The position numbers and the translations under genes are program-made. A stretch of 64,000 nucleotides of DNA from Proteinivorax hydrogeniformans. Lineage in GTDB: Bacteria; Bacillota; Proteinivoracia; Proteinivoracales; Proteinivoracaceae. The stretch is taken from contig NZ_CP159485.1 of NCBI RefSeq assembly GCF_040515995.1, positions 2,294,001 through 2,358,000 on the forward strand, given 5' to 3'. Positions 11,397-52,773 of the stretch are shown here, in pieces. Positions within the stretch are counted from its first letter, which is position 1. Each line of letters opens with the position of its first letter. The notes below the pieces were generated by a model that worked only from the letters and a program-made list of their open reading frames with translations, made no database searches and was not told where the DNA came from.

Positions 11397-11897
11397 ATGT
11401 CAAAATCTAAAAGTAAGCACTACTCTAAAGAGTTTATTGAGTCCGTATTAAAAAGACTTGAGCCCCCTTCAAATGACACCGTTACTGCTATTGCAGCAGA
11501 GCTGGGCATTCCCAAAACAACCATTTATACATGGGTGAAAAGAAACAATAAAACTCTATCATCTCGCAAACCTCAAAATAGGTGGAACTCAGAAGATAAA
11601 TTCCAAATAGTATTAGAAACAGCAGCTTTAAGTGAAGCTGAGCTAGCCGATTACTGCCGACGTAAAGGTATATACCTTGAAGATATAAAGCGTTGGAAAG
11701 AGCAATGTTTAAAGGCAAACCAAGGTGAAACACAGGACTACCAAAAGACTAAAAGTGAGTTAAAGGAAGAAAAGGAAAAAGCAAAAGAATTAAAAAAGCA
11801 GCTTAGACAAAAAGAGAAGGCACTGGCAGAAACGGCTGCATTACTAGTATTAAGAAAAAAAGCAGACGCGATTTGGGGGGACCCCGAGGAAGACTGA
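11397..11897 (+). CDS. IS3-type transposase OrfA (copy 1)
   Basis: A 166-residue DNA-binding protein with two helix-turn-helix regions: VTAIAAELGIPKTTIYTWVK at about 30-49 and a second around 58-100. A long charged coiled coil follows (KSELKEEKEKAKELKKQL). In IS3 elements OrfA binds the ends, and the active transposase is the OrfAB fusion made by frameshifting. Its end overlaps orfB by 25 bases in the -1 frame at a run of six G (11875-11880). The protein is identical to the copy at 15714. Confidence 0.9.
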   Translation: MSKSKSKHYSKEFIESVLKRLEPPSNDTVTAIAAELGIPKTTIYTWVKRNNKTLSSRKPQNRWNSEDKFQIVLETAALSEAELADYCRRKGIYLEDIKRWKEQCLKANQGETQDYQKTKSELKEEKEKAKELKKQLRQKEKALAETAALLVLRKKADAIWGDPEED

Positions 11898-12958
11898 TCA
11901 GTAGCTCAGATCGCGTAAAAGCAGTAGAACTGATCGATGAAGCAAGAATAAATGGTGCAAGGTTAGCCCCTGCATGTGAAGTATTAAGTATCAGCGTGCG
12001 TACCTATCAAAGATGGACTAAGGAAAAAGGGAAGATCAAAGAAGATAAAAGACCTTCAGCTAAACGCCCCACTCCTAAAAACAAGCTAACAGATGAAGAA
12101 CGCCAAGAAATAATAAAAACAGCAAATAATCCTAAGTATGTCGACTTACCTCCATCACAAATAGTTCCTAAGCTGGCAGACGAAGGCAAATATTTGGCAT
12201 CTGAATCAACAATTTACAGGGTTTTAAAAGAAGAAAAAATGGATGCTCACCGAGGAAGGGCCAAAAAACCCACAAAAAGGGAGCCTCCTACTCATGTAGC
12301 TACTTCCCCTAATAAAATATGGACTTGGGATATAACATGGCTAAACTCTGCTGTTAAAGGTAGTTTCTATAAGTTATACCTTATAATAGATATGTTTAGC
12401 AGATTAATTGTAGCCTATGAAGTATGGGAGTCAGAGAAAGCAGAATATGCTGAAAGACTTATTAAAAAAGCAACATTGTCTCAAAAGATTTCAGGTCGAC
12501 CTTTAGTACTACACTCCGATAATGGCAGCCCAATGAAAGCAGCAACATTTCAGGCCACACTTGAAAAACTAGGTATTCAAAGCTCTTTTTCCCGTCCAAG
12601 AGTTAGTAATGACAACCCTTACTCCGAATCGCTCTTTAAGACCATGAAGTATCGCCCAGCATACCCTTATAAAGGTTTTAAAAGCATAGAGGAAGCAAGA
12701 AATTGGGTTAAAGAATTTGTTAGATGGTATAACTATGAACACTTACATAGTGGCTTAAAATTTGTTACACCTTACCAAAGACACTATGGAATTGATGTTA
12801 ATATAGTAGAAAAAAGAATCAGGATCTATGAGCATGCAAGGAAAAAGCACCCAGAGAGGTGGTCTAAAAATATCAGAGATTGGTCATTACCCGAATATGT
12901 TTCTCTAAACCCTATAAAAGACATACAGTTTAAAAATACTATAGATCATGTAGATTAG
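11873..12958 (+). CDS. IS3-type transposase OrfB, DDE integrase (copy 1)
   Basis: The catalytic half of the transposase. After an HTH_21-like region the integrase core shows all three catalytic positions: WDIT, HSDNG and NPYSESLFKTMKY. It is probably made as an OrfAB fusion by a -1 shift on the G run; the nominal first codon TTG has no clear ribosome site. It is identical in protein sequence to the copy at 16190, which means recent transposition. Confidence 0.92.
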   Translation: MGGPRGRLISSSDRVKAVELIDEARINGARLAPACEVLSISVRTYQRWTKEKGKIKEDKRPSAKRPTPKNKLTDEERQEIIKTANNPKYVDLPPSQIVPKLADEGKYLASESTIYRVLKEEKMDAHRGRAKKPTKREPPTHVATSPNKIWTWDITWLNSAVKGSFYKLYLIIDMFSRLIVAYEVWESEKAEYAERLIKKATLSQKISGRPLVLHSDNGSPMKAATFQATLEKLGIQSSFSRPRVSNDNPYSESLFKTMKYRPAYPYKGFKSIEEARNWVKEFVRWYNYEHLHSGLKFVTPYQRHYGIDVNIVEKRIRIYEHARKKHPERWSKNIRDWSLPEYVSLNPIKDIQFKNTIDHVD

Positions 12959-15713: not shown

Positions 15714-16214
15714 ATGTCAAAATCTAAAAGTAAGCACTACTCTAAAGAGTTTATTGAGTCCGTATTAAAAAGACTTGAGCCCCCTTCAAATGACACCGTT
15801 ACTGCTATTGCAGCAGAGCTGGGCATTCCCAAAACAACCATTTATACATGGGTGAAAAGAAACAATAAAACTCTATCATCTCGCAAACCTCAAAATAGGT
15901 GGAACTCAGAAGATAAATTCCAAATAGTATTAGAAACAGCAGCTTTAAGTGAAGCTGAGCTAGCCGATTACTGCCGACGTAAAGGTATATACCTTGAAGA
16001 TATAAAGCGTTGGAAAGAGCAATGTTTAAAGGCAAACCAAGGTGAAACACAGGACTACCAAAAGACTAAAAGTGAGTTAAAGGAAGAAAAGGAAAAAGCA
16101 AAAGAATTAAAAAAGCAGCTTAGACAAAAAGAGAAGGCACTGGCAGAAACGGCTGCATTACTAGTATTAAGAAAAAAAGCAGACGCGATTTGGGGGGACC
16201 CCGAGGAAGACTGA
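15714..16214 (+). CDS. IS3-type transposase OrfA (copy 2)
   Basis: Identical 166-residue protein to the OrfA at 11397: two helix-turn-helix regions and a charged coiled coil, ending in the -1 frame overlap with OrfB at a run of six G. Confidence 0.9.
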   Translation: MSKSKSKHYSKEFIESVLKRLEPPSNDTVTAIAAELGIPKTTIYTWVKRNNKTLSSRKPQNRWNSEDKFQIVLETAALSEAELADYCRRKGIYLEDIKRWKEQCLKANQGETQDYQKTKSELKEEKEKAKELKKQLRQKEKALAETAALLVLRKKADAIWGDPEED

Positions 16215-17275
16215 TCAGTAGCTCAGATCGCGTAAAAGCAGTAGAACTGATCGATGAAGCAAGAATAAATGGTGCAAGGTTAGCCCCTGCATGTGAAGTA
16301 TTAAGTATCAGCGTGCGTACCTATCAAAGATGGACTAAGGAAAAAGGGAAGATCAAAGAAGATAAAAGACCTTCAGCTAAACGCCCCACTCCTAAAAACA
16401 AGCTAACAGATGAAGAACGCCAAGAAATAATAAAAACAGCAAATAATCCTAAGTATGTCGACTTACCTCCATCACAAATAGTTCCTAAGCTGGCAGACGA
16501 AGGCAAATATTTGGCATCTGAATCAACAATTTACAGGGTTTTAAAAGAAGAAAAAATGGATGCTCACCGAGGAAGGGCCAAAAAACCCACAAAAAGGGAG
16601 CCTCCTACTCATGTAGCTACTTCCCCTAATAAAATATGGACTTGGGATATAACATGGCTAAACTCTGCTGTTAAAGGTAGTTTCTATAAGTTATACCTTA
16701 TAATAGATATGTTTAGCAGATTAATTGTAGCCTATGAAGTATGGGAGTCAGAGAAAGCAGAATATGCTGAAAGACTTATTAAAAAAGCAACATTGTCTCA
16801 AAAGATTTCAGGTCGACCTTTAGTACTACACTCCGATAATGGCAGCCCAATGAAAGCAGCAACATTTCAGGCCACACTTGAAAAACTAGGTATTCAAAGC
16901 TCTTTTTCCCGTCCAAGAGTTAGTAATGACAACCCTTACTCCGAATCGCTCTTTAAGACCATGAAGTATCGCCCAGCATACCCTTATAAAGGTTTTAAAA
17001 GCATAGAGGAAGCAAGAAATTGGGTTAAAGAATTTGTTAGATGGTATAACTATGAACACTTACATAGTGGCTTAAAATTTGTTACACCTTACCAAAGACA
17101 CTATGGAATTGATGTTAATATAGTAGAAAAAAGAATCAGGATCTATGAGCATGCAAGGAAAAAGCACCCAGAGAGGTGGTCTAAAAATATCAGAGATTGG
17201 TCATTACCCGAATATGTTTCTCTAAACCCTATAAAAGACATACAGTTTAAAAATACTATAGATCATGTAGATTAG
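16190..17275 (+). CDS. IS3-type transposase OrfB (copy 2)
   Basis: Identical 361-residue DDE integrase to the one at 11873, with WDIT, HSDNG and NPYSESLF positions intact. Both copies look competent, so either could mobilise the other. Confidence 0.92.
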   Translation: MGGPRGRLISSSDRVKAVELIDEARINGARLAPACEVLSISVRTYQRWTKEKGKIKEDKRPSAKRPTPKNKLTDEERQEIIKTANNPKYVDLPPSQIVPKLADEGKYLASESTIYRVLKEEKMDAHRGRAKKPTKREPPTHVATSPNKIWTWDITWLNSAVKGSFYKLYLIIDMFSRLIVAYEVWESEKAEYAERLIKKATLSQKISGRPLVLHSDNGSPMKAATFQATLEKLGIQSSFSRPRVSNDNPYSESLFKTMKYRPAYPYKGFKSIEEARNWVKEFVRWYNYEHLHSGLKFVTPYQRHYGIDVNIVEKRIRIYEHARKKHPERWSKNIRDWSLPEYVSLNPIKDIQFKNTIDHVD

Positions 17276-35182: not shown

Positions 35183-35884
35183 CTACTTTTGGGTTTCGTT
35201 ATTAATGATAGCTTTACTTTTTTTCATCCTTCTTCTTTTAATAGCTTTAACTTGTTTAGAACGCTCAAATATCAACCTATCCTTATCTAAATTAAATTCT
35301 TTAGTTGCTGTATCTAAAAAAAGATTAGAAAATTTAACTTTCCAATCTGTATATTCTGGTGAGTATAGAAGTATAAAAGCTGATATTCTAGCTAAGTCTT
35401 CTTCTCGCTTTCCCTTAGCACAGTCCTCAAAGTCAACTCCATAAATGTCGTTATTTGACACTAAGAAGTTCCTTAAATTGCAATCCTGCAAAGTTAATCC
35501 TGTAAAATTATAAAACTGGTCTAACCAAGCGAGAAAATTATAAGTTATTTTTATGACCCTTTCGTCGTCTACTTTATAGGATTTTCTTTCAAAGTCTAGG
35601 ATCGTTTCTAATAAAGTGTTTGCAGGTAGGTATTCCATTAAGAGCATCTGGTCGTTGTGGTAATACACTTTAGGGACATTAAATCCATTCCGATACAGTT
35701 TGATTAATATATTATTTTCTTTTTGGATACCTCTATTTTTGTACTTTAGTACAAATCGATTGCTTTTCCCCAAAAAATCTTCTGTGTAAACTAACATAAC
35801 CTTGTTTTTTTTGCTGGGAAAAACTTTTTCAAACTTGTATTTAACTATTTGATGACTATCAACAAACTGTTTTGGCAGGCACAT
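35183..35884 (-). CDS. Small protein-kinase-fold phosphotransferase, end of riboswitch operon
   Basis: A 233-residue kinase-like protein. The likely ATP lysine is K47 (FVLKYKN), the hinge region is LLMEYLPANT (81-90), the catalytic loop is QDCNLRNFL (D134, N139) and the metal-binding Asp is D151 (GVDFEDC). This matches RIO/APH-type small-molecule or protein kinases. A basic tail (KAIKRRRMKKSK) ends the protein. It is the ninth and last gene of the operon, starting directly after the mobB stop codon with GAGGAG overlapping it. In this context phosphorylation of an imported cofactor precursor is my inference; a protein substrate is also possible. Confidence 0.7.
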   Translation of the reverse strand: MCLPKQFVDSHQIVKYKFEKVFPSKKNKVMLVYTEDFLGKSNRFVLKYKNRGIQKENNILIKLYRNGFNVPKVYYHNDQMLLMEYLPANTLLETILDFERKSYKVDDERVIKITYNFLAWLDQFYNFTGLTLQDCNLRNFLVSNNDIYGVDFEDCAKGKREEDLARISAFILLYSPEYTDWKVKFSNLFLDTATKEFNLDKDRLIFERSKQVKAIKRRRMKKSKAIINNETQK

Positions 35885-36634
35885 TTACTCCTCACCTATT
35901 TTTATTTTTATTGACTTGCCTTTTTTATAGCCATCTAACTCTTTAGCTACTGCAAGAACATTATTATACAAAATATTTTTCACAAATGGCACCATATCAA
36001 TTTTTTGCCCGTCTATCTCAAGCTCTATTTTTCCTTCATTTATTAAGCAATCGCTTACACTTTTCTCTTTTTTGATAATCTTTTGTTTAAGCTCCTCACA
36101 ACTAAACCCACAAGCATTACAGCATTTTGAAGGAAAATCTGGTAGTTTATTATATGTTTTTTCTAATATCAGGTCTACTAATTTATCTACTTCAGTTAAA
36201 GCACTTAAAGCAGGTACTCCTTTATATGAGCTAATTTTTTCAGATATTCGACCGGATATAGCAATAGTATGATTATCTACCCGTTCTTTAAGCTCTTGCT
36301 CGTTGTGGGCTGTTATAATCTTAGGGCAGCTATAATCTACCACTCCCTCTAGCACAACAAAATCATGCTCATAACAGCGCAGTATTTCTTCTATAGAAAG
36401 CCTTCTTTTATATAAGATGTCAGTTTCAAATAGGCCTCTAGCTGTAACTAAGTCGGATCCTGCTTTGTAGTGTCTATGAGTATTAGTCCCCTCTGTATCA
36501 ATTGCAAACTTTTCAAAATGTATGTCTTTAACAGAGCCCACCGTAAATCTTCTTTTTTTCAATTCTGTTATTATCTTTTCTATAGTAGTGGTTTTGCCAG
36601 ACTGAGTAATTCCTATAACTGAAAATAGCTTCAT
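35885..36634 (-). CDS. mobB: MobB-type P-loop GTPase with Cys-rich C-terminal extension
   Basis: A 249-residue protein whose first 160 residues match MobB: P-loop GITQSGKTTTIEK (8-20), KDIHFEKFAIDTEGTNTHRH (36-55) and VVLEGVVDY. MobB assists MobA in making molybdopterin guanine dinucleotide. Residues 165-249 are an extension with C171, C172, C175, C179 and C196, a spacing that could hold an Fe-S cluster or a metal. It follows the ecfT gene by 32 bases. It is the clearest in-operon link to molybdenum or tungsten cofactor chemistry. Confidence 0.85.
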   Translation of the reverse strand: MKLFSVIGITQSGKTTTIEKIITELKKRRFTVGSVKDIHFEKFAIDTEGTNTHRHYKAGSDLVTARGLFETDILYKRRLSIEEILRCYEHDFVVLEGVVDYSCPKIITAHNEQELKERVDNHTIAISGRISEKISSYKGVPALSALTEVDKLVDLILEKTYNKLPDFPSKCCNACGFSCEELKQKIIKKEKSVSDCLINEGKIELEIDGQKIDMVPFVKNILYNNVLAVAKELDGYKKGKSIKIKIGEE

Positions 36635-36666
36635 CTTAACCCTCCCAAACTTTTTAACTGTTTACT

Positions 36667-37392
36667 TTAAGAAAAGTATTTAAAAATCACTGCACCGGTT
36701 GAAAAACAAAATATTACCATGGAGACATAATCTCTATAGCCTAGCTTTAACTGTCTATAACTTGTTCTGTTCGAGCATGCTCTAAGACCTCTCATTTCAA
36801 CTGCAATTGCCAGTTCTTTAGCTTTTAAAATAACGCTTGCTATCATAGGCATTATTAAGTATGAATATATTTTAATTTTGGTTCCTTTGGGTATTTTTTT
36901 TAAGTTTATACCTCTTAGTTGTATTGCTGTCATCATATCTATTACTTCTTCTTTAAGCATAGGTAGAAATCTTATCGCCACAGAAACCATAAAAGCTAAT
37001 TCGTACGGTATTTTCCATTGGTATAGACCTTGAACAATATCACGAGAGTTTGATGTTGTCATAACAGTAGCAGAGGTGATTATAATTGATATTCTTAAAA
37101 AAATAGATGCAGAATTTGCCAGACCAACTGTAGAAACTATTGTGAGGTTTCCTAATGTAACTAATCCTTCTCCGCCGTCGGTGAAAATACTTTGTATAAA
37201 AATCATAAACACAAAAATCCAAGCAAATCTTTTTAGCTTCCAGAAAATCATAAGAGATCCACTTTTAAACAGCACTGACATCATTACAGCTACACACAAT
37301 ACACACAAAAGCCATAAAGCATCATTAAATAAAACTGCCATGCTGGATATACACATCACCATTATTAGCTTAGTTCTGGGGTCACACTGCAT
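36667..37392 (-). CDS. ecfT: ECF transporter T component
   Basis: About 241 residues with five to six helices. The cytoplasmic coupling motifs are AIQLRGINL and AVEMRGLRA, which match the paired A-x-RG signatures by which EcfT grips the two ATPases. I prefer ATG 37392 (MQCDPRTKLIMVM), as DPRTKLI is the normal EcfT opening; a GTG 15 bases upstream is possible. It overlaps the end of the preceding ATPase gene. Confidence 0.9.
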   Translation of the reverse strand: MQCDPRTKLIMVMCISSMAVLFNDALWLLCVLCVAVMMSVLFKSGSLMIFWKLKRFAWIFVFMIFIQSIFTDGGEGLVTLGNLTIVSTVGLANSASIFLRISIIITSATVMTTSNSRDIVQGLYQWKIPYELAFMVSVAIRFLPMLKEEVIDMMTAIQLRGINLKKIPKGTKIKIYSYLIMPMIASVILKAKELAIAVEMRGLRACSNRTSYRQLKLGYRDYVSMVIFCFSTGAVIFKYFS

Positions 37393-38047
37393 AAGAGCTT
37401 TCCTCACCTTTTTTTAACTCAATTATTCTATTAGCGTACTTAGTGACAAAACTCTTATCGTGACTAATTATTAACATCCCGATACCATCATCTAGCAATG
37501 TCTTTAAAATATTTAATAGCGCTTGTTTTCTCTTTATGTCTAAAGCAGTTGTGGGCTCATCTAAAATCAAGAATTTAGGCCGGTTGATTAAAATGGAGGC
37601 TAAAACTAATCTTTGCTTTTCCCCTCTGCTTAGATAAAAAGGAAATTTAGTTCTTTCATTTAATAATTCAAAATCTGATAGTGCTTTCAACACTTTTTTT
37701 TCAATAATGTCTTCTCTATAGCCATTAATTCTTAACGCAAACGAAAGTTCTTCTTCCACTGTAGGAGCAAAGATTTGTTTTTCGGGGTCTTGAAACATAT
37801 AACCTACTTTCTGGCCTACCTCGCCTAAAGAGATTTCTTTGGTGTTTAAACCATCTATTAACACATCACCAGCAGTTGGCTTTATTATGCCTGCCATCAA
37901 CTTCCCTATGGTGGATTTGCCGCTGCCATTAGATCCAAGTAATGCTGTCAAGCCAGTTTTAGGAATTGTCATATTTAAATTATCTATGACTAATTCTTTT
38001 GGATTCATCCCATAACCATAAGATATCCCATCAAAAACAATACTCAT
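37382..38047 (-). CDS. ecfA: ECF transporter ATPase (second)
   Basis: A 221-residue ABC ATPase. Walker A is GSNGSGKST (39-47), the Q-loop is YMFQDPEKQIFAPTVEEEL, the signature is LSRGEKQRLVLAS and Walker B is FLILDEPTTALD. The FQDPExQ(L/I)F motif is characteristic of ECF/cobalt ATPases. Its ATG overlaps the stop of the preceding ATPase by 4 bases (ATGA). It pairs with the other ATPase as the energising heterodimer. Confidence 0.92.
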   Translation of the reverse strand: MSIVFDGISYGYGMNPKELVIDNLNMTIPKTGLTALLGSNGSGKSTIGKLMAGIIKPTAGDVLIDGLNTKEISLGEVGQKVGYMFQDPEKQIFAPTVEEELSFALRINGYREDIIEKKVLKALSDFELLNERTKFPFYLSRGEKQRLVLASILINRPKFLILDEPTTALDIKRKQALLNILKTLLDDGIGMLIISHDKSFVTKYANRIIELKKGEESSYAV

Positions 38048-38733
38048 AAAGTCTCCCCCCTAAAGTCCGATAACTTTCCATTTTTTAAAAGCATTACTCT
38101 ATCTGCTACCTTTAGATTATCAAAATCATGTTCTACCATAATTATAGTTTTTCCCTCTGCCTTTAAGGTCTTTATTAAATCTAAAATCTTGTTTTTTTCA
38201 TATAGGTCTAGTTGAGACAAAGCCTCGTCAAATATTAGAATATCAGGTTTTAGGCTTAACACCGAAGCTAGTGCAACTAATTGTTTTTCACCACCGGAAA
38301 GCATTTTGGGATTTTTAAAACGATGTTTTTTTATGCCCACTTTGTTAATTACCTCAGATATGCGCTTGCCTATCTCCTCACGAGGCAACCCAAAGTTTTC
38401 AGGACCAAATGCTATCTCATCTTCTACAGTTGGAGAAAACAGTTGTGTGTCAGGGTTTTGGAAAATAACCCCCACCTTTTTAACTAAATGTGGCATGCTT
38501 AGCTCCTTTAAGGAAGTCCCATCAATTAGTATCTCCCCTTGTGCATCACCTTGCTTAATCCGTGGAATCACCCCACTTATTAAGGCACATAATGTGCTTT
38601 TGCCGCTTCCGCTTAACCCTACTATTGCAATAATTTCACCACGTTGAACTGTTAGATCTATTCCTTTTAGCAGTTTTTCTTCTGATTTTTTAAATCCAAA
38701 ATAGAGATTTTTTACCTCAATTTTTTTTATCAA
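38044..38733 (-). CDS. ecfA: ECF transporter ATPase (first)
   Basis: A 229-residue ABC ATPase. Walker A is GLSGSGKST (38-46), the Q-loop is VIFQNPDTQLFSPTVEDEI, the signature is LSGGEKQLVALAS and Walker B is ILIFDEALSQLD, where ALSQ replaces the common PTSA. Its start is a TTG whose last bases overlap the stop codon of the preceding gene (TTGA). It forms a heterodimer with the next ATPase. Confidence 0.92.
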   Translation of the reverse strand: MIKKIEVKNLYFGFKKSEEKLLKGIDLTVQRGEIIAIVGLSGSGKSTLCALISGVIPRIKQGDAQGEILIDGTSLKELSMPHLVKKVGVIFQNPDTQLFSPTVEDEIAFGPENFGLPREEIGKRISEVINKVGIKKHRFKNPKMLSGGEKQLVALASVLSLKPDILIFDEALSQLDLYEKNKILDLIKTLKAEGKTIIMVEHDFDNLKVADRVMLLKNGKLSDFRGETL

Positions 38734-39242
38734 TTAACATCCAGCTCCATTAAAAACTTGTTCCACCGTTGTCCAAATTGGTCTTGCTTTATTACCACCT
38801 GGTACGGACCGGAACCTCCATCTTCCCGTGGTGCTAGGTACTCACCGTTTTCTTTATATACTATATACACGTTGTCTTTGTCTAAAATTTCACTTTGCGT
38901 AAGAGCTACAGTGTAACCGTCGGCAGCTCGAGTGATAACCTGATTTATGTCATCTAAGTTAATGTCATATTTAGACAATAAATCTTTCATCAAAATTCCT
39001 TTATATGTGTTGTCCTTGTTTGGACTGCTGCTGCTTCTTAAGGTTACTTCAAATTCATGTTGAGCCAGTTCTAACATATCATCAAAATTAACTGTTGCTA
39101 CGCGCTCGTCCTCAAAGTTAATGAAGATTTTTGCCTCTTCTTGGCTTAGCACTCTTTCCTCTCTATCATTTAAGTTTAAGTAAGCGAAAACTACTATAAC
39201 TCCCAACAAAATACCTAAGGTAATAAGAATTTTTTTATTCAT
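38730..39242 (-). CDS. Membrane-anchored SUOX-like (molybdopterin-binding-like) domain protein
   Basis: About 170 residues: an N-terminal membrane anchor (KKILITLGILLGVIVVFAYL), then one extracytoplasmic domain. The domain shows the pattern of the SUOX-type oxidoreductase molybdopterin-binding fold: YKGILMKDLL, AADGYTVALTQSEI, NVYIVYKENGEYL and GSGPYQVVI...WNKFLMELDV. The Mo-ligating Cys of true enzymes is not visible. I chose ATG 39242, 7 bases after GGGGGTG. It overlaps the phosphatase gene by 8 bases. A cofactor-binding role is inferred. Confidence 0.7.
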   Translation of the reverse strand: MNKKILITLGILLGVIVVFAYLNLNDREERVLSQEEAKIFINFEDERVATVNFDDMLELAQHEFEVTLRSSSSPNKDNTYKGILMKDLLSKYDINLDDINQVITRAADGYTVALTQSEILDKDNVYIVYKENGEYLAPREDGGSGPYQVVIKQDQFGQRWNKFLMELDVN

Positions 39243-40737
39243 TAATTGCACCCCCGTTAAAAATCCAATATGGCATAAACATATCTTCTGTTATCAACGA
39301 ACCATGGTCGCCACCTTCCTCTGTCTTATGCATTCCATGGTCAGCATATACTATTACTTTTCCGTCCCATTTGGCTACTAACTGATTGACATAACTATCT
39401 ATCTTTTTTAAATCCTCTAAGATTTCAACGGCAAGATCTCCATAATTGTGTCCAGCTATATCAACATCTTTGTAATGTACAAACAGCAAGTCAAGACCTT
39501 TTGACATCTTCTTTAACGCGTTTTCGGTTTTTTCGTCGTCTGTGCTGCCATCGTTATTTTCATCCATAGACAGAACAGGAGGGATCTCTAATTCTATTGT
39601 TCCAATAGGGCCTATTACGGCAGCAGCTTCTTTGTTTTGCTTTTTACAAAACCCAAAAATTGTTGGCACCTCTACCTTTCTTATCCCTCTTTTGTAAACA
39701 CCGTTGACATAAGGAAGCTCTCCGGTTAAAGAAGCTGCTAGATTGACAGGAGTTACAGAAGGATAAGCTACCATAGCTTTTTGGGGCTCTGGCAAGCTTT
39801 CTAAAAATGGGATGTAATCGTTCTTTTTTGCGTACTGGTATTGATGATACCCAAGCCCGTCAATTAAAATCAGCATTACATTTTCTTCTTGATTAAGCAT
39901 TTTTTTTGTATCGTAATAAACATCTGTTATTCTTTTAGCCGGTGGCTTTATAACTACCCCAACAACGTCTTGGATCTTTAACTCACCATTAACCACATAC
40001 CCTATACTGTTATTGTTCAAAACTAGTTTACCTTCTTTATCTAAAGAAGCTTCCTCACCTTTTTTACCAACTACTAGAGCCTCTTCATCATCATTTATAT
40101 ATTTTTCAATGTCGATTATTTTTCTTTTATTAAAAGTGGTTACATCTAAACTTTCTCCATCGTTTTTAATTGTTGATTCTCCTCTAAAAGTAAAAACAGT
40201 AGAGTATCCTTTTTTATATAGCTGCCCCACCGATAGGCTAGCTATATTCTCACCCGGTCTAATTATATTAAAACTATCTTCCACTGATAAATCATCGCTC
40301 ACTATAACGATTTTTTTGACATCTTTAACATTGCTGCTGGGTGGATGGTTTTTGTTTATTGCCTCCCAACCGTACTCTTTACTTTGCGCAATATAGCTTT
40401 TTTCTAGATTTTTGTTAGAAATCAAAGCACTATAACCATCATGTGATATAAATAGCACATCAAACCTTTCAGTTTTAGGGTTTGCTTTTTTTATTACTTC
40501 TTCTAGTGGTGCTACTTCTAAGGAATCATCTCTGTAATTTATAGTGACTGCCTCGGAATGTTTCTGAACATAATCCAAACTAACTGATTCTTTAACATCC
40601 CCGACAACTTCTAATAAAGGCATATAATGGGTAGAATCACCTGACTGAGGTATTACATTTAGAAGTAAAAGCACTAAAAGACCAACACTTATAAGAACTA
40701 TTGCGCTAATTTTATTATGCTTCTTTATATTTAACAC
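39235..40737 (-). CDS. Membrane-tethered alkaline-phosphatase-superfamily phosphodiesterase
   Basis: A 500-residue protein. One N-terminal helix (residues 10-28) anchors it outside the cell. Residues 45-270 include a degenerate SUOX-like stretch with SHDGYSALI (98-106). Residues 285-500 are an alkaline-phosphatase/NPP-type catalytic domain with every metal position visible: D293 (LIDGLG), nucleophile T329 (PSVTPVN), D426 and H430 (DIAGHNYG), D466-H467 (ADHGM) and H478 (GGDHG). Such enzymes cleave phosphodiesters or phosphomonoesters. Position before ECF genes suggests it trims a phosphorylated or nucleotide-linked ligand before uptake (inference). Confidence 0.8.
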   Translation of the reverse strand: MLNIKKHNKISAIVLISVGLLVLLLLNVIPQSGDSTHYMPLLEVVGDVKESVSLDYVQKHSEAVTINYRDDSLEVAPLEEVIKKANPKTERFDVLFISHDGYSALISNKNLEKSYIAQSKEYGWEAINKNHPPSSNVKDVKKIVIVSDDLSVEDSFNIIRPGENIASLSVGQLYKKGYSTVFTFRGESTIKNDGESLDVTTFNKRKIIDIEKYINDDEEALVVGKKGEEASLDKEGKLVLNNNSIGYVVNGELKIQDVVGVVIKPPAKRITDVYYDTKKMLNQEENVMLILIDGLGYHQYQYAKKNDYIPFLESLPEPQKAMVAYPSVTPVNLAASLTGELPYVNGVYKRGIRKVEVPTIFGFCKKQNKEAAAVIGPIGTIELEIPPVLSMDENNDGSTDDEKTENALKKMSKGLDLLFVHYKDVDIAGHNYGDLAVEILEDLKKIDSYVNQLVAKWDGKVIVYADHGMHKTEEGGDHGSLITEDMFMPYWIFNGGAINE

Positions 40738-40767
40738 TTATATCACACCCCCCTAGAGTAAAGTACT

Positions 40768-41319
40768 CTACCAAGCTAGCTTATCCTTAAATTGCTTAAC
40801 CACCTTATGGGCAATTATACCTCCTATCCCTCCTGATAAGGATGCTACCGCAAGACTCAGCACCAAAGGTACAAAAGGCAGCCTAAAAAAAACTAAGTTT
40901 ACTAAAAAGCTACCGCTCACGTTTGCAGCTATGCCGGCAGCAAAGCAACACCCTGCGCAACAGCCTTTATGCCTTGAAATAAGAAATATCAAGTCCACAG
41001 CCACCCCTGGCAATATATATGTAGCCAAGCTCATAATTCCATGAGTTCCAAAAAAACCAACTGAAATAACTACAATAGCCTGCACAAGGGCGATTAACGT
41101 TGCGGAGCCGGTCTTTCCAACAAGAGCAGCTCCCATTACAATCCACATCATATAAAATCCGCCTGCAACTACCCCGCCTGGTATAAAAAAAGGCCCTGTA
41201 ATTATATATGCTAGGGGAACTACTATTGGCTTTACTGCTAAACCTAAGCATGCCATTAGAGCTATAATCATCAAATCATAGATAGAAAAACGCTCAAGAA
41301 AAGAGCTTGGGTTGTTCAT
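40768..41319 (-). CDS. ECF transporter S component (YkoE-like)
   Basis: About 183 residues with five to six helices. It contains GPFFIPGGVVAGGFYMMWIV and LATYILPGVAVDLIFLI, which recall YkoE/thiamine-precursor-type substrate-binding subunits. A short loop RHKGCCAGCCFAAG carries four cysteines, which is unusual. I chose ATG 41319, 6 bases after GGGAGGTG, rather than the upstream codon at 41334. The genetic setting (Moco-type riboswitch, mobB) argues for a molybdenum/tungsten-cofactor-related ligand; a thiamine-like or other pterin ligand cannot be excluded. Confidence 0.75.
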   Translation of the reverse strand: MNNPSSFLERFSIYDLMIIALMACLGLAVKPIVVPLAYIITGPFFIPGGVVAGGFYMMWIVMGAALVGKTGSATLIALVQAIVVISVGFFGTHGIMSLATYILPGVAVDLIFLISRHKGCCAGCCFAAGIAANVSGSFLVNLVFFRLPFVPLVLSLAVASLSGGIGGIIAHKVVKQFKDKLAW

Positions 41320-41357
41320 TTTGTCACCTCCCATTTTGATGCCACAACTTTTCTAAC

Positions 41358-42458
41358 TTAGTTTATAGGCTTTATAAATAAAAGATCTCTAACTGCAGTA
41401 TTTCTTGGTAAAAAGTCAAATTCAGAAGCCACCTCTTTGCTTTCTCTTATATACACTATCCCGGAGGCTAAATCCTCGTAGGTTACCTCAGCTGAAAATC
41501 CATCTGCAGCTTCTAAAAGATATTTGTCAGCTTTTTTAAGTCCGTACTCCTCAACTAAAACCTGCAAGTTTATACCGTTGTTTTCGCCAACTTCATATTC
41601 ATCAAATATCTCCTTCCCTCTTTCCACTGAAAATACCCCTGTATTATTAACAGATAACCAAACAAGGTCTCTAACGTGCATTCCTCTTGGAAGGTCAGGA
41701 GATCTGAAAGCTGGTGTGTTTTCACCTTGAGTAACTATGAAAGCATCTTTAAATGTTTCATATTCTTCGTTTTTATCAAAGCCATCTGTGGCTAACATAT
41801 AAACATCTCCTGATGCATCTATTTTCTCTAAAAACTTTGAACCTTTAACACTCTTTTTGTCTTCACTACCATCGTATGGAAGTTCTTCCATTTCAGAAAT
41901 TACCGATTCAAAAAACTTAATTTTTCCTAGTTCATTATTTTTTTCTTGAGTAGGTTCCCCATTTTCTAACTTAATCTCAACTAAGCTGCTAACCCAGTAC
42001 ATGGACTCTTCCTCAGGTATAAAAACTCTAATTGGCCTTGATTCTTCATGTAGTGGATCGCCTTTAATTTCGTAAGCTAAAATTATATCCCTTTTTGCTA
42101 GAATATGATTTGGTACTTCCAGGGAATATCCATCCGAGGCTGTCAACCTAATAGTCTCAATGCTTTTTATATCTTGATCTATCGACTTTAATACATCTTC
42201 GAACAAAGCTCCTTTAATTGTATACTCCTCTTCTATTTCTCCATCATCATCTCTTCTAATAATTTTTTCCGTAGTTTCTTGTAATTCCATTAGCTCCATA
42301 ACGCTAATTTCAGTTTTCCCTTGGCTAGAACTCAAAATTGTTATTACATCTTCTACAGTAGGGTATTCACTAATAGCCTTTTCTTCTGTAGAGCAACCAA
42401 CAATTGCTCCCATTGTAAGTAATAATACGCAAATTATAGCTAGCAATTTTTGTCTCAT
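41358..42458 (-). CDS. Lipoprotein with tandem SUOX-like domains
   Basis: About 366 residues. Signal peptide MRQKLLAIICVLLLTMGAIV ends at lipobox Cys22. Two or more repeats of a SUOX-like fold follow, marked by ASDGYSLEV, ATDGFDKNEE and AADGFSAEV, plus YTIKGALFEDVLKSI and ESRPIRVFIPEEESMYWVSS. The Mo-ligating Cys is absent, so catalysis is unlikely and ligand capture is more plausible. I start at ATG 42458 (GAGGAG 11 bases upstream); a start at 42515 would lie against the riboswitch terminator. First gene of the operon. Confidence 0.75.
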   Translation of the reverse strand: MRQKLLAIICVLLLTMGAIVGCSTEEKAISEYPTVEDVITILSSSQGKTEISVMELMELQETTEKIIRRDDDGEIEEEYTIKGALFEDVLKSIDQDIKSIETIRLTASDGYSLEVPNHILAKRDIILAYEIKGDPLHEESRPIRVFIPEEESMYWVSSLVEIKLENGEPTQEKNNELGKIKFFESVISEMEELPYDGSEDKKSVKGSKFLEKIDASGDVYMLATDGFDKNEEYETFKDAFIVTQGENTPAFRSPDLPRGMHVRDLVWLSVNNTGVFSVERGKEIFDEYEVGENNGINLQVLVEEYGLKKADKYLLEAADGFSAEVTYEDLASGIVYIRESKEVASEFDFLPRNTAVRDLLFIKPIN

Positions 42459-42516
42459 GATTCTAAACACTCCTCTTAGAGAAATTTTGATAAAATTTGG
42501 GTACATTTCTTCCAAA

Positions 42517-42552
42517 TAAAAAAAATGCCTTTCTTTTAATGGAAAGACATTT
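42517..42552 (-). terminator. Riboswitch expression-platform terminator
   Basis: On the minus strand AAATGTCTTTC pairs with GAAAGGCATTT (one G-U) and eight T follow. It lies between the aptamer and the first gene, so ligand binding could stop transcription of the whole operon. Confidence 0.85.
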
Positions 42553-42576
42553 AATATATAAAAACTATAACCACCA

Positions 42577-42735
42577 TCAGGCAGTTACGATTAAACTCCT
42601 TTCCACCGGGAGGCATACCCGTTTCCAAATATACCCTAACGGCCTAGATACCATAGATTAATCCTTAGATATAAAGGCTCGGAGCAAATATTTAATTGTG
42701 AACTACCCACCAATTACCACCTATGCGGGTTGCTT
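42577..42735 (-). ncRNA. Moco/Tuco-type riboswitch
   Basis: The minus strand holds the conserved core GCCTCCCGGTGGAAAGGAG (42596-42614), and upstream GAGCC ... GGCCGTTA, in the order seen in the moaA leader Moco motif. The 5' flank (42698-42733) can form a further hairpin (AACCC/GGGT). The hairpin that normally precedes GCCTCCCG appears reduced to a few bases. In the literature loss of the P3 stem marks the putative tungsten-cofactor (Tuco) variants. A terminator follows at 42517-42552. I recognise it from memory of the motif; a covariance search would settle it. Confidence 0.8.
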
Positions 42736-42782
42736 GAATAAAAAAGAGTTGAGATGAGAAGTGTTATTTAATCTCTCCTCTT

Positions 42783-42810
42783 ACTATAATTATTCTACAC
42801 TTAATCTAAA
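42783..42810 (-). promoter_or_regulatory. Promoter of the riboswitch operon
   Basis: Minus-strand TTTAGA and TATAGT at a 16-base spacing, just upstream of the riboswitch. The -10 matches 5 of 6 and the -35 matches 4 of 6. Confidence 0.45.
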
Positions 42811-49604: not shown

Positions 49605-50354
49605 TTAACCGATTACGACCGTTTTTTGTCCCTTAACCTCGCCTATAGCGGAAGTGATTCCATAAACAGATTCAATCGTTTCCGGTGTAACGACGGACTC
49701 ATCCCCATATTTATACGCCTTGCCGTCTTTTAAAAAAAGAAATCTATCACAATAACGTAGTGCAAGATTGATATCATGTGAAACAATGATAGTGCTGATA
49801 TTTCGTTCTTTTGTCACATGTCGCACCAACGCCATCATTTCATACTGATTTTTTGGGTCAAGATTACTGGTCGGCTCATCTAAAAGCAACAGACGGGGTT
49901 GCTGGACGAGAGCACGGGCCAGCATTACCTTTTGCAACTCTCCTCCGGAAAGTTCGTCTATATACCTTAGCTTAAATTCAGACAAACCCATTTTCTCAAG
50001 CATTTCATCACAAATATCTATATCCTCCTGAGATACAGCCCACTTTATGTATGGCTTCCTTCCCAGCAGTACGGAGTCAAACACGGTCATTTGGTGTATT
50101 TCATTTTTTTGTGCCACATATGAAATGTGTCGGGCAGTTTCTAATCTACTCATTTTAAGGATATCATGCTTGTCGATTAGAACCCTTCCCTTTTTCGGTG
50201 CTCGAATCTTATTTAAGCAAGTAACGAGCGTACTTTTTCCTGCGCCGTTTTTGCCTAAAATTCCTACGAACTCACCGGCCACAACGTTGAAACTGACGTC
50301 TTTTAAAATATTACTTTTGCCGTAAGAAAAAGAAATATCTTTAATTTCTATCAA
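49605..50354 (-). CDS. FecE-type ABC transporter ATPase
   Basis: A 249-residue ATPase of the iron/cobalamin importer class. Walker A is GKNGAGKST (35-43), signature LSGGELQKVMLARAL, Walker B LLLLDEPTSNLD, and switch His in VSHDINLAL. Its start overlaps the permease stop by 4 bases. Last gene of a binding protein-permease-ATPase operon. Confidence 0.92.
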   Translation of the reverse strand: MIEIKDISFSYGKSNILKDVSFNVVAGEFVGILGKNGAGKSTLVTCLNKIRAPKKGRVLIDKHDILKMSRLETARHISYVAQKNEIHQMTVFDSVLLGRKPYIKWAVSQEDIDICDEMLEKMGLSEFKLRYIDELSGGELQKVMLARALVQQPRLLLLDEPTSNLDPKNQYEMMALVRHVTKERNISTIIVSHDINLALRYCDRFLFLKDGKAYKYGDESVVTPETIESVYGITSAIGEVKGQKTVVIG

Positions 50355-51442
50355 TCAACCCACCTCTTCTTCCTTTGCTTTATGATTAAATATAAGAACA
50401 GAGGTCCGCCTAAAAAAGAGGTGATGGCACCTATGGGCAAAATGGCGGGAGCCTTTATCATTCGTGATGCGATATCCGCTAAAAGCATAATCACACCACC
50501 CATGAGCGCCGAACAAGGTATCAAAAAACGGTAGTCGCTACCTACGAACCTGCGTACAATATGAGGTGCAATCAACCCTATGAAGCTAATCGTCCCGACA
50601 AAGGCAATTGCCGTTGCAGAAATAAGAGTAGCTATGGACATACTGACAAGAATCAATCTATCGACATTAACCCCAAGACTTTTGGCTGTATTGGCACCGC
50701 TTTCCATGGCATTATAGTTCCAGCGATTAAGGAAAAAATAAAAGAAAGCAAGCACACTGAGTATGAATATCAGAGATATCTCCTTCCATCCAGCTCTCCC
50801 AAGATTGCCAAAGGTCCAGTATACAATGGAAGCAACCATATCATCATCGCTGAAATATTGAATTAACGTCGTTGCCCCAGTAAACATCGAACTCAACGCC
50901 ACACCGGCTAAGATCATCACAGCTGGTGACACCCCACTTACGCGAGATAACATCAAGATAACCAAGGTAGTAGAAATACCACCTAAAAACGCCCAAGTGG
51001 CTACCGTGTATGGATTGGTAACAGAGATACTTGCGCTGGAGGCATTACTAATTTGGGCACCTGCCTGAAAATATACGATTGCGATAGACGCCCCGAAAGA
51101 TGCACCCTGAGATACCCCTAGCGTCGAGGCAGAAGCTAGCGGGTTGCGCAGTACACTTTGCATCACGCACCCCGCCATAGCAAGGGCTATTCCAACACTA
51201 ACTGCCGTTGCAACCCGCGGCATACGCACGTTCCAGACAATTGTTTGGCTTGTCGCTTCATTGCTAAAGCCAAACAGAGCTCGCAGCACCTCACTAATGG
51301 GAATACCTGATGACCCCACCGAAATAGACACTATGGCAGCGGCTAGCAGGATTATGACAAGTGACACGAGAAACAACCATTTTTTGGCGATGTAGCGGTA
51401 ATATTCGTTGTGTTTACCTATAGAGCATTTGAGTGTTCTCAT
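50351..51442 (-). CDS. FecCD-type ABC transporter permease
   Basis: A 363-residue permease with about nine to ten helices. The BtuC/FecD landmarks are NVRMPRVATAVSVGIALAMA (about 68-87), RNPLASASTLGVSQGASFGA (about 94-113) and FIGLIAPHIVRRFVGSDYRF near residue 290. It starts 4 bases after the binding-protein stop codon. GC content in this operon seems somewhat higher than in flanking genes, which may hint at a separate origin. Confidence 0.92.
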   Translation of the reverse strand: MRTLKCSIGKHNEYYRYIAKKWLFLVSLVIILLAAAIVSISVGSSGIPISEVLRALFGFSNEATSQTIVWNVRMPRVATAVSVGIALAMAGCVMQSVLRNPLASASTLGVSQGASFGASIAIVYFQAGAQISNASSASISVTNPYTVATWAFLGGISTTLVILMLSRVSGVSPAVMILAGVALSSMFTGATTLIQYFSDDDMVASIVYWTFGNLGRAGWKEISLIFILSVLAFFYFFLNRWNYNAMESGANTAKSLGVNVDRLILVSMSIATLISATAIAFVGTISFIGLIAPHIVRRFVGSDYRFLIPCSALMGGVIMLLADIASRMIKAPAILPIGAITSFLGGPLFLYLIIKQRKKRWVD

Positions 51443-51446
51443 AACA

Positions 51447-52583
51447 TCACTCGCCTATTGTAATCTGCCCATAGTAGAGGCCGCCTTCATTCATAAGTTC
51501 ATACGTATTCTCACCAAGGAATGTCGTTAATATCTCTTTAGCTTTATCGTCGATGTCAACATCGGAAAACTGCTCGGGAAACAAAACAGTGCCGGCATAG
51601 TATGCATTTATAAATGCGTAGGTAAAATTTGTTCCGGCGTTATTAAATGCTGGCATTGTATAAACTTTCCCTTCCTGCACTGCCTGCAGTGAATCGAAAT
51701 AGCTTGGGTTTTGCGCATATTCATCGTTTACCAAGTCCATATTACCTGGATCAAGGAATATTACATCAGGATCCCAGATTAGTATTTTTTCTAAGTCTAC
51801 CTCATAAAAACTTTCGATGCTTTTATCCTCAGCTACATTAATTGCGTTAATGGCGTCAAATATACCAAATTCGGAGTATGTCCCAGAAAAGCCCCGTCTG
51901 CCGTTCCATGTAACCGCACCAGCATACGCCCGCTGTTTATCACTATCAGAAACATCAGATGTACGTTTATGTAAGTCAGCAAGCATGGAGTCCACATAGT
52001 CAAGAATCATTTCCGCTCGTTTTTCTGCGCCGATCACATCGCCAAATACCCTAGTAGCTTTATAAAAAGATTCCGGCGCTAAACCGGTGCCGTGCCGCAC
52101 CGAAACTACAGGAATACCAGTTTGTGCCTGCAATTCGTCTGCTGCTTCCAAATCAAACCCAGCAACTATAACGTCGGGCGCAGCCATGATAATCTCTTCA
52201 GGGTAACCGTTGTTTTGGCCACTGCCTCCACCTTGACCAACGAAGGGCAACTCCTTTAAGGTATCGTGGTGCACAGGATTATAGTCTCTGCGAATATTTA
52301 CGCCTTGTGCTATATATTCTTCCGCCCCTACAACCATATCCATTGCATCAAGGTATGCCGCTAAACGAGGCGCCCCTGAGCCTAAACAGATGATTGACTC
52401 TACACTCACAGGGATTTTTACCTCCCTGCCTGTTACATCTGTAATTATTCTAGTCTCAGATGTGGATGTTTTCTCTATGGACTCGCTGCTCCCTTCAGTG
52501 GGCTCGCTGCTGCATCCGACAATCGATATAAAAAGTGAAAAGGTTAATAGTAGTGTCAACGCTTTTTTCATACTGTTACTCAT
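51447..52583 (-). CDS. Fec-type substrate-binding lipoprotein
   Basis: About 378 residues: lipoprotein signal LLTFSLFISIVGC followed by a two-lobed periplasmic-binding domain (ITDVTGREVKIPVSVESIIC; APDVIVAGFDLEAADELQAQ). I chose ATG 52583 with GGAGGAAGAG upstream. Typical ligands of this class are ferric siderophores, haem or cobalamin; some relatives bind molybdate or tungstate. No cobalamin riboswitch or Fur-like box was recognised upstream, so the ligand is open. It neighbours redox locus B. Confidence 0.88.
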   Translation of the reverse strand: MSNSMKKALTLLLTFSLFISIVGCSSEPTEGSSESIEKTSTSETRIITDVTGREVKIPVSVESIICLGSGAPRLAAYLDAMDMVVGAEEYIAQGVNIRRDYNPVHHDTLKELPFVGQGGGSGQNNGYPEEIIMAAPDVIVAGFDLEAADELQAQTGIPVVSVRHGTGLAPESFYKATRVFGDVIGAEKRAEMILDYVDSMLADLHKRTSDVSDSDKQRAYAGAVTWNGRRGFSGTYSEFGIFDAINAINVAEDKSIESFYEVDLEKILIWDPDVIFLDPGNMDLVNDEYAQNPSYFDSLQAVQEGKVYTMPAFNNAGTNFTYAFINAYYAGTVLFPEQFSDVDIDDKAKEILTTFLGENTYELMNEGGLYYGQITIGE

Positions 52584-52773
52584 TTCTCTTCCTCCTTCAT
52601 TTTCAATGTTACGAAACCTCTTTATACCACTTCGAAACAAAAACTACCTGCTTATACCTAAGTTCAACGTCAACTTTAAATTTCTTCTTTAGTATTTATG
52701 GAGAACTTAAACACTCACTTCTTTATTCTAACATTTTTCTAACCCTTTCCCAATAAATTTATTTAACATTAAA

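Follow-up and report, generated by a model that had tools for sequence, protein, structure and literature searches.

The molybdenum and tungsten cofactor (Moco/Tuco) riboswitch regulon of Regulski et al. (2008; PMC2408646) covers, in the portions of that account considered here, genes for cofactor synthesis, molybdate/tungstate transport and enzymes, with no energy-coupling factor (ECF) importer among the contexts described. Peng et al. (2018; PMC6147048) reported about 300 organisms with molybdoproteins and an incomplete Moco pathway and gave no mechanism for this, and no bacterial importer of Moco or molybdopterin was found described in the open-access papers searched (subscription journals lie mostly outside this coverage). 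PruR, a periplasmic SUOX-like protein without the Mo-ligating cysteine, binds pterins, yet how pterins cross the membrane is stated as unknown in a review (PMC13259868). Here, we analyzed a 64,000-nucleotide stretch of Proteinivorax hydrogeniformans DNA (the window; GCF_040515995.1, contig NZ_CP159485.1, positions 2,294,001-2,358,000, forward strand; GTDB lineage Bacteria; Bacillota; Proteinivoracia; Proteinivoracales; Proteinivoracaceae). It carries a nine-gene ECF transporter operon behind a predicted Moco/Tuco riboswitch. Very probably, this operon encodes a salvage importer for the preformed Mo/W cofactor (most likely tungsten-molybdopterin here) that replaces lost synthesis; it would be the first such cofactor salvage system known in bacteria.

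Loss of cofactor synthesis and retention of Mo/W enzymes

The host genome (2.83 Mb in a single contig; 99.88% complete) yielded neither MoaC nor MoeA_N in family searches for which control genomes behaved as expected, and the MoaA, Mog and MoeA queries returned weak radical-SAM matches only. Among the metal-uptake queries, the Escherichia coli ModB part was disregarded, as it matches ordinary ATP-binding cassette (ABC) permeases. Three molybdopterin oxidoreductases are encoded all the same, one of them a full-length selenocysteine (Sec) formate dehydrogenase (FDH) with an in-frame TGA in the context HCARL-Sec-HSSTVAG; a tungsten-type aldehyde oxidoreductase (AOR) and a MobA-like protein are also present, and no xanthine-oxidase-type MoCoBD_1 protein was found in the genome. 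Judged from its gene content, the host appears to use no known route to make the cofactor. An earlier note on this DNA had set the absence of moaA, moaC and moeA beforehand as favoring salvage, and these genes proved to be absent despite the several encoded Mo/W enzymes.

A congener (G004) is the mirror image of the host: it has moaA-moaC, MoeA- and Mog-like matches and TupA/TupB for tungstate uptake, and no S component of the ECF transporter was found in it. The genes flanking moaC-moaA in the congener are collinear in the host, where a spacer of some 300-400 bp stands in place of moaC-moaA. A decayed C-terminal part of moaA lies within this spacer (LENGIKQKLSGHDISRE against LKNGIKQKPRGHDIDRD; L141:5417-5476, G000:C1:2738417-2738476). 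Upstream of the riboswitch, host and congener share a nucleotidyltransferase gene (91% identical), and the genes downstream of the host operon had no counterpart in the congener stretches compared, as would be expected if the host had gained the operon.

For their orphan molybdoproteins, Peng et al. propose Mo-independent forms or unknown parts of synthesis (PMC6147048). On that idea, the Mo/W enzymes kept by the host would be non-functional or cofactor-independent and the operon would serve some other purpose. We rate this as the least probable of the alternatives considered: the AOR of the host is 96% identical over the whole protein to that of the cofactor-making congener, its FDH is likewise 96% identical (195 residues compared), and the Sec motif and full length of FDH have been kept together with the MobA-like protein.

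A riboswitch-controlled ECF operon

The nine genes run codirectionally on the minus strand from 42458 to 35183, with neighboring genes spaced by -26 to +32 bp (overlapping, or 0-32 bp apart). Both the single-strand run, claimed previously with adjoining or overlapping ends, and its protein set (two SUOX-like proteins, an NPP-type enzyme, ECF S, A, A and T proteins, MobB and a kinase-like protein) were borne out: all nine open reading frames (ORFs) lie at the coordinates first given, and each protein has a family match in Pfam or a related collection.

Upstream, on the same strand, lies a Moco/Tuco riboswitch aptamer (RF01055) at 42580-42696, which scored 77.7 bits (E value 4.4e-17) against a gathering score of 36 bits. 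It is the sole Rfam match in the window, and the only RF01055 match in the whole host genome. The Moco aptamer proposed in the earlier note was thus upheld by the model, while its extent, put there at 42577-42735, had to be corrected. The P3 stem is absent, the gap being visible in the covariance-model alignment, and P3-less aptamers go with tungsten-cofactor genes according to the part of Regulski et al. drawn on here (PMC2408646). The host aptamer is predicted to sense Moco or Tuco. An intrinsic terminator (a 9-bp hairpin and U tract at about 42518-42550, minus strand, from sequence and predicted fold) is presumably its OFF expression platform. At five other loci, the S component is preceded by two or three tandem Moco aptamers (L011:9378-9674, L012:6096-6370, L013:530-884, L014:8198-8664 and L015:7191-7479).

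Recurrence of the operon and its distribution relative to synthesis

As the order-level search covered only 5 genomes, distribution was judged from S-component loci and a 12-genome class sample. The S-component search yielded 24 further loci with much the same operon, and a Moco riboswitch was found upstream at 17 of these and in all four further class members. Because the gene set recurs in many genomes with the riboswitch in this position, the pairing of operon and riboswitch is not due to chance. None of the results that the earlier note would have taken as refuting was obtained: the Moco model matched, homologous operons carry a Moco riboswitch and none a thiamine pyrophosphate (TPP) riboswitch, and two positions at which YkoE contacts thiamine seem to be missing (see below).

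MoaC is absent from 15 other S-bearing genomes. Among the 24 S-locus genomes, 11 lack MoaC, and the same 11 also lack MoaA and MoeA; two of them, G016 and G020, keep a Mog-like protein (34% and 46% identical to the query). TupA/TupB/ModA were not found in any of these 11 genomes, and TupA/TupB were present in all four MoaC-positive control genomes (Fisher P = 0.0005). Host and MoaC-less genomes taken together, 10 of the 12 encode a molybdopterin oxidoreductase, and the other two (G006 and G019) have an AOR. In the class sample, S component and MoaC were mutually exclusive: seven genomes had S without MoaC, four had MoaC without S and one had neither (Fisher P = 0.01, relatedness not corrected). 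Two members of this sample, G029 and G031, are duplicates of G023 and G026, and each pair was counted once. On the S-component tree, the MoaC-absent label requires three changes, which suggests that synthesis was lost or replaced probably more than once.

These distributions bear on the idea that molybdate or tungstate is what the ECF system brings in, the cofactor being made by an unrecognized route. Moco riboswitches often control molybdate/tungstate transporters, as far as the material considered from Regulski et al. goes (PMC2408646), and TupA/ModA were not found in the salvage genomes, both of which would fit. However, neither MoaA nor MoaC is there for pterin synthesis, known Mo/W uptake is by ModABC, WtpABC or TupABC (PMC6147048), and MobB, the kinase and the pterin-binding-like proteins would have no role in oxyanion uptake. 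We therefore consider oxyanion import quite unlikely.

In three genomes (G025, G027 and G028), the operon, with its ECF, MobB and kinase genes, directly adjoins, on the same strand, a NuoE/NuoF-type pair, a Sec FDH, mobA and fdhD (in G025, the stretch from FDH to mobA to fdhD spans two contigs). This arrangement links the transporter with an enzyme that uses a pterin dinucleotide. In genomes of Pelotomaculum and relatives, large surface proteins and MotA/ExbB and DUF2149 genes come after the S gene, either directly or beyond the A-A-T genes (L011:10640-20439, L012:7312-16836, L014:10823-20546 and L021:3731-10796); the large surface proteins of L011 have SUOX-like, S-layer and Shr-like domains. 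Elsewhere, ApbE, polyferredoxin-type and FMN-binding proteins, one of the last carrying a fused SUOX-like domain, lie beside the ECF genes (L004:5307-9982 and L016:16007-16390) and suggest an extracellular redox step. In Anaerovirgula, which keeps cofactor synthesis, the ECF operon converges with the genes of a TupABC-type transporter (L002:16173-18805), which have a Moco riboswitch of their own.

The ECF transporter

The transporter is of the group I ECF type, with two motif-bearing ABC ATPases, a CbiQ-family T component with two RG motifs and a dedicated S component in the operon. The ATPases A1 (38044-38733; TIGR04520, 1.6e-67) and A2 (37382-38047; TIGR04521, 2.5e-50) are ABC_tran proteins with Walker A, Walker B and signature motifs, and the T component (36667-37407; PF02361, 2.7e-32) has the coupling motifs IQLRG and VEMRG. 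The S component (40768-41334) is YkoE-like (ABC_cobalt/YkoE-like; PF09819, 2.3e-13). A PDB sequence search with its profile found no relative, so comparison rests on an AlphaFold model (predicted local distance difference test score, 88.5), whose structural neighbors are YkoE (5EDL; template modeling [TM] score, 0.69), the nearest, followed by RibU and ThiT.

With YkoE as the nearest solved S component and PF09819 as the shared family, the protein might be taken for a YkoE-type transporter of thiamine or hydroxymethylpyrimidine (HMP) that came under a Moco RNA by happenstance. Thiamine in YkoE is contacted by a stacking Trp49 in helix 2 and by Glu77 in helix 3 (PMC5037267). Both positions appear to be missing here: none of 24 S proteins has a Trp in helix 2 or an Asp/Glu in helix 3, in a comparison made at the level of helices rather than by residue-level structural alignment. 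The invariant polar residues of the S component include K35, K74, Q85, H98 and N138, which would suit an anionic ligand. The apparent lack of the two thiamine contacts, together with the Moco (and never TPP) riboswitches and with neighbors such as MobB, FDH and MobA, makes thiamine or HMP transport highly improbable.

The window's other ABC transporter (49605-52640) is of the FecCD type and was rejected as a Mo/W transporter. Elsewhere in the window, two ORF pairs of equal sizes (166 and 361 amino acids; 11397-12958 and 15714-17275) are probably one mobile element in two copies.

Surface proteins and accessory enzymes

The first gene of the operon, suox1 (41358-42458), encodes a lipoprotein with a SUOX-like (Oxidored_molyb) domain (PF00174, 6.7e-8), in which a lipobox-like IVGC and two further DGY/DGF repeats were read in the sequence; it is presumed to be a pterin-binding capture protein. 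The second such gene, suox2 (38730-39251; PF00174, 4.8e-8), encodes a small membrane-anchored protein with no cysteine, so that the Mo-ligating cysteine of SUOX-family molybdoenzymes is absent. Its family profile was nearest to 7KOM among solved structures (4e-7) and weakly matched the pterin-binding proteins 7KOS (E value 0.012) and 7RKB (0.017).

Between the S gene and suox2 lies the gene for a membrane-anchored ectophosphodiesterase (39235-40737; PF01663 [Phosphodiest], 7.1e-15), in which an NPP/alkaline-phosphatase-fold catalytic domain follows a weakly SUOX-like domain. In a structure search confined to the catalytic domain, ENPP1, ENPP3 and Xac NPP matched with Z scores of about 20, and the metal-binding catalytic motifs are intact. 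The match of the N-terminal domain to suox2 (hhalign E value 1.4e-5, probability 80) is suggestive only of a SUOX-like nature.

The last two genes encode MobB (35885-36634) and the small kinase-like protein (35183-35884). MobB combines a GTPase domain (PF03205, 8.1e-18; 65 bits, cutoff 26.6) with a C-terminal Fe-S-type cysteine domain (PF04060, weak); it falls just below the cutoff of TIGR00176 (74.2 against 76.2) and matches NF011064 at 3e-39, under that model's cutoff. The kinase-like protein resembles APH, RIO1 and Bud32 (PF01636, 3.9e-9; PF01163, 6.5e-8), keeps the catalytic-loop motifs D-x-N-x-R-N-F and DFE, and is a candidate dephospho-molybdopterin kinase. At every locus where both were readable, the NPP protein is accompanied by the kinase.

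A model for cofactor salvage and its weighing

The imported molecule, its metal-bearing state and each enzymatic step are what we infer from the above. Pterin cofactor shed by other organisms would be captured at the outer face of the cell by the Cys-less SUOX-like proteins. In genomes that have it, the NPP-type ectoenzyme would split the dinucleotide form (MGD) at its pyrophosphate and might also remove the terminal phosphate. The YkoE-like S component would then bind the ligand, the A1-A2-T module would import it, and the kinase, where present, would restore the phosphate. Inside the cell, MobB and the chromosomal MobA may re-attach GMP for FDH, and AOR may use the nucleotide-free cofactor. 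The riboswitch would sense the cofactor and, at high cofactor levels, turn the operon off.

That metal uptake and insertion were lost along with pterin synthesis points to a metal-bearing cofactor, and the kept MobA-like protein to nucleotide addition probably inside the cell; retention of MobA/MobB while the other functions are missing suggests that molybdopterin is imported with its metal but without its nucleotide. We lean, with moderate confidence, toward a broader scenario in which anaerobic Bacillota lineages gave up making the cofactor, taking up the metal and inserting it, and import finished, intact, metal-bearing Moco/Tuco from their neighbors via the riboswitch-controlled ECF transporter, with the nucleotide handled by the ectoenzyme and MobA/MobB. 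Alternatively, the ECF system might import molybdopterin without metal, or a precursor from earlier in its synthesis such as cyclic pyranopterin monophosphate (cPMP), with the metal entering by another route. S components usually bind small organic molecules, many S-bearing genomes also make the cofactor (see below) and the MoaE query was uninformative, all of which would fit; against it, MoeA and TupA/TupB/ModA are absent from all 12 salvage genomes (the host and 11 others), as is Mog from the host and nine others. Such import of a metal-free form is a possibility we hold to be rather doubtful, though one to be taken seriously.

Several points weigh against salvage of a finished cofactor. Claims of binding and transport by the operon are drawn from sequence and context. 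The pocket of PruR was reported to be probably too small for Moco (PMC13259868). Cofactor is still synthesized by 13 of the 24 S-bearing genomes, so salvage can coexist with synthesis, and part of the operons have no riboswitch. One genome (G033, L132; 90% complete, 120 contigs) has an FDH-type gene with neither MoaC nor S component found, and the comparison genomes are mostly metagenome-assembled. Regarding the searches, the host has no detectable TupA/TupB/ModA, WtpA and sulfate-type transporters not having been searched for, and, as no genome gave a listed match to MoaE within the concatenated query, we make no claim on MoaE. Finally, NPP and kinase are missing from several salvage genomes; the route of stripping, import and rephosphorylation is therefore accessory. 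Uptake and salvage as read in the earlier note are supported by the missing synthesis genes and by recurrence, with its phosphatase and kinase steps reduced to that accessory role.

For molybdoenzyme bacteria with an incomplete Moco pathway, the operon supplies a directly testable mechanism. If the model is true, part of the orphan-molybdoprotein bacteria would be explained, ECF transporters would gain a new ligand class, and Moco/Tuco would be a traded metabolite, a shared good among anaerobes; the importer would also offer a handle for study or delivery of an unstable cofactor.

Comparison with known systems

The host locus shares parts with several known systems. With the regulon of Regulski et al., to the extent of the passages considered (PMC2408646), it has in common the aptamer class, the P3-less Tuco type and the terminator. 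TupABC/ModABC combined with MoaABCDE-MoeA leads to the same end product and is under the same riboswitch class, whereas in the host this pathway appears to have been replaced, MoaA/MoaC/Mog/MoeA and TupA/TupB/ModA not being found there. PruR (7KOS and 7RKB; PMC13259868) is, like suox2 of the host, a small, secreted, SUOX-like protein with no Mo-ligating cysteine; it acts in pterin signaling with DcpA in Proteobacteria, whereas suox2, whose family profile is weakly similar to the PruR entries (E values 0.012-0.017), is tied to an ECF importer. YkoEDC of Bacillus subtilis, a thiamine transporter of the group I ECF type (S component structure, 5EDL; PMC5037267), shares the S family PF09819, the fold (TM score, 0.69) and a dedicated A, A, T module; in contrast, the host operon has a Moco riboswitch, SUOX-like proteins, NPP, MobB and a kinase, and its S component is without the helix-2 Trp and helix-3 acid. 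Caenorhabditis elegans likewise takes up preformed Moco, in its case from the diet (PMC9793310). It is an animal, and its transporter is not described in the portion of that report considered here, whereas the system proposed for P. hydrogeniformans is a bacterial ECF transporter.

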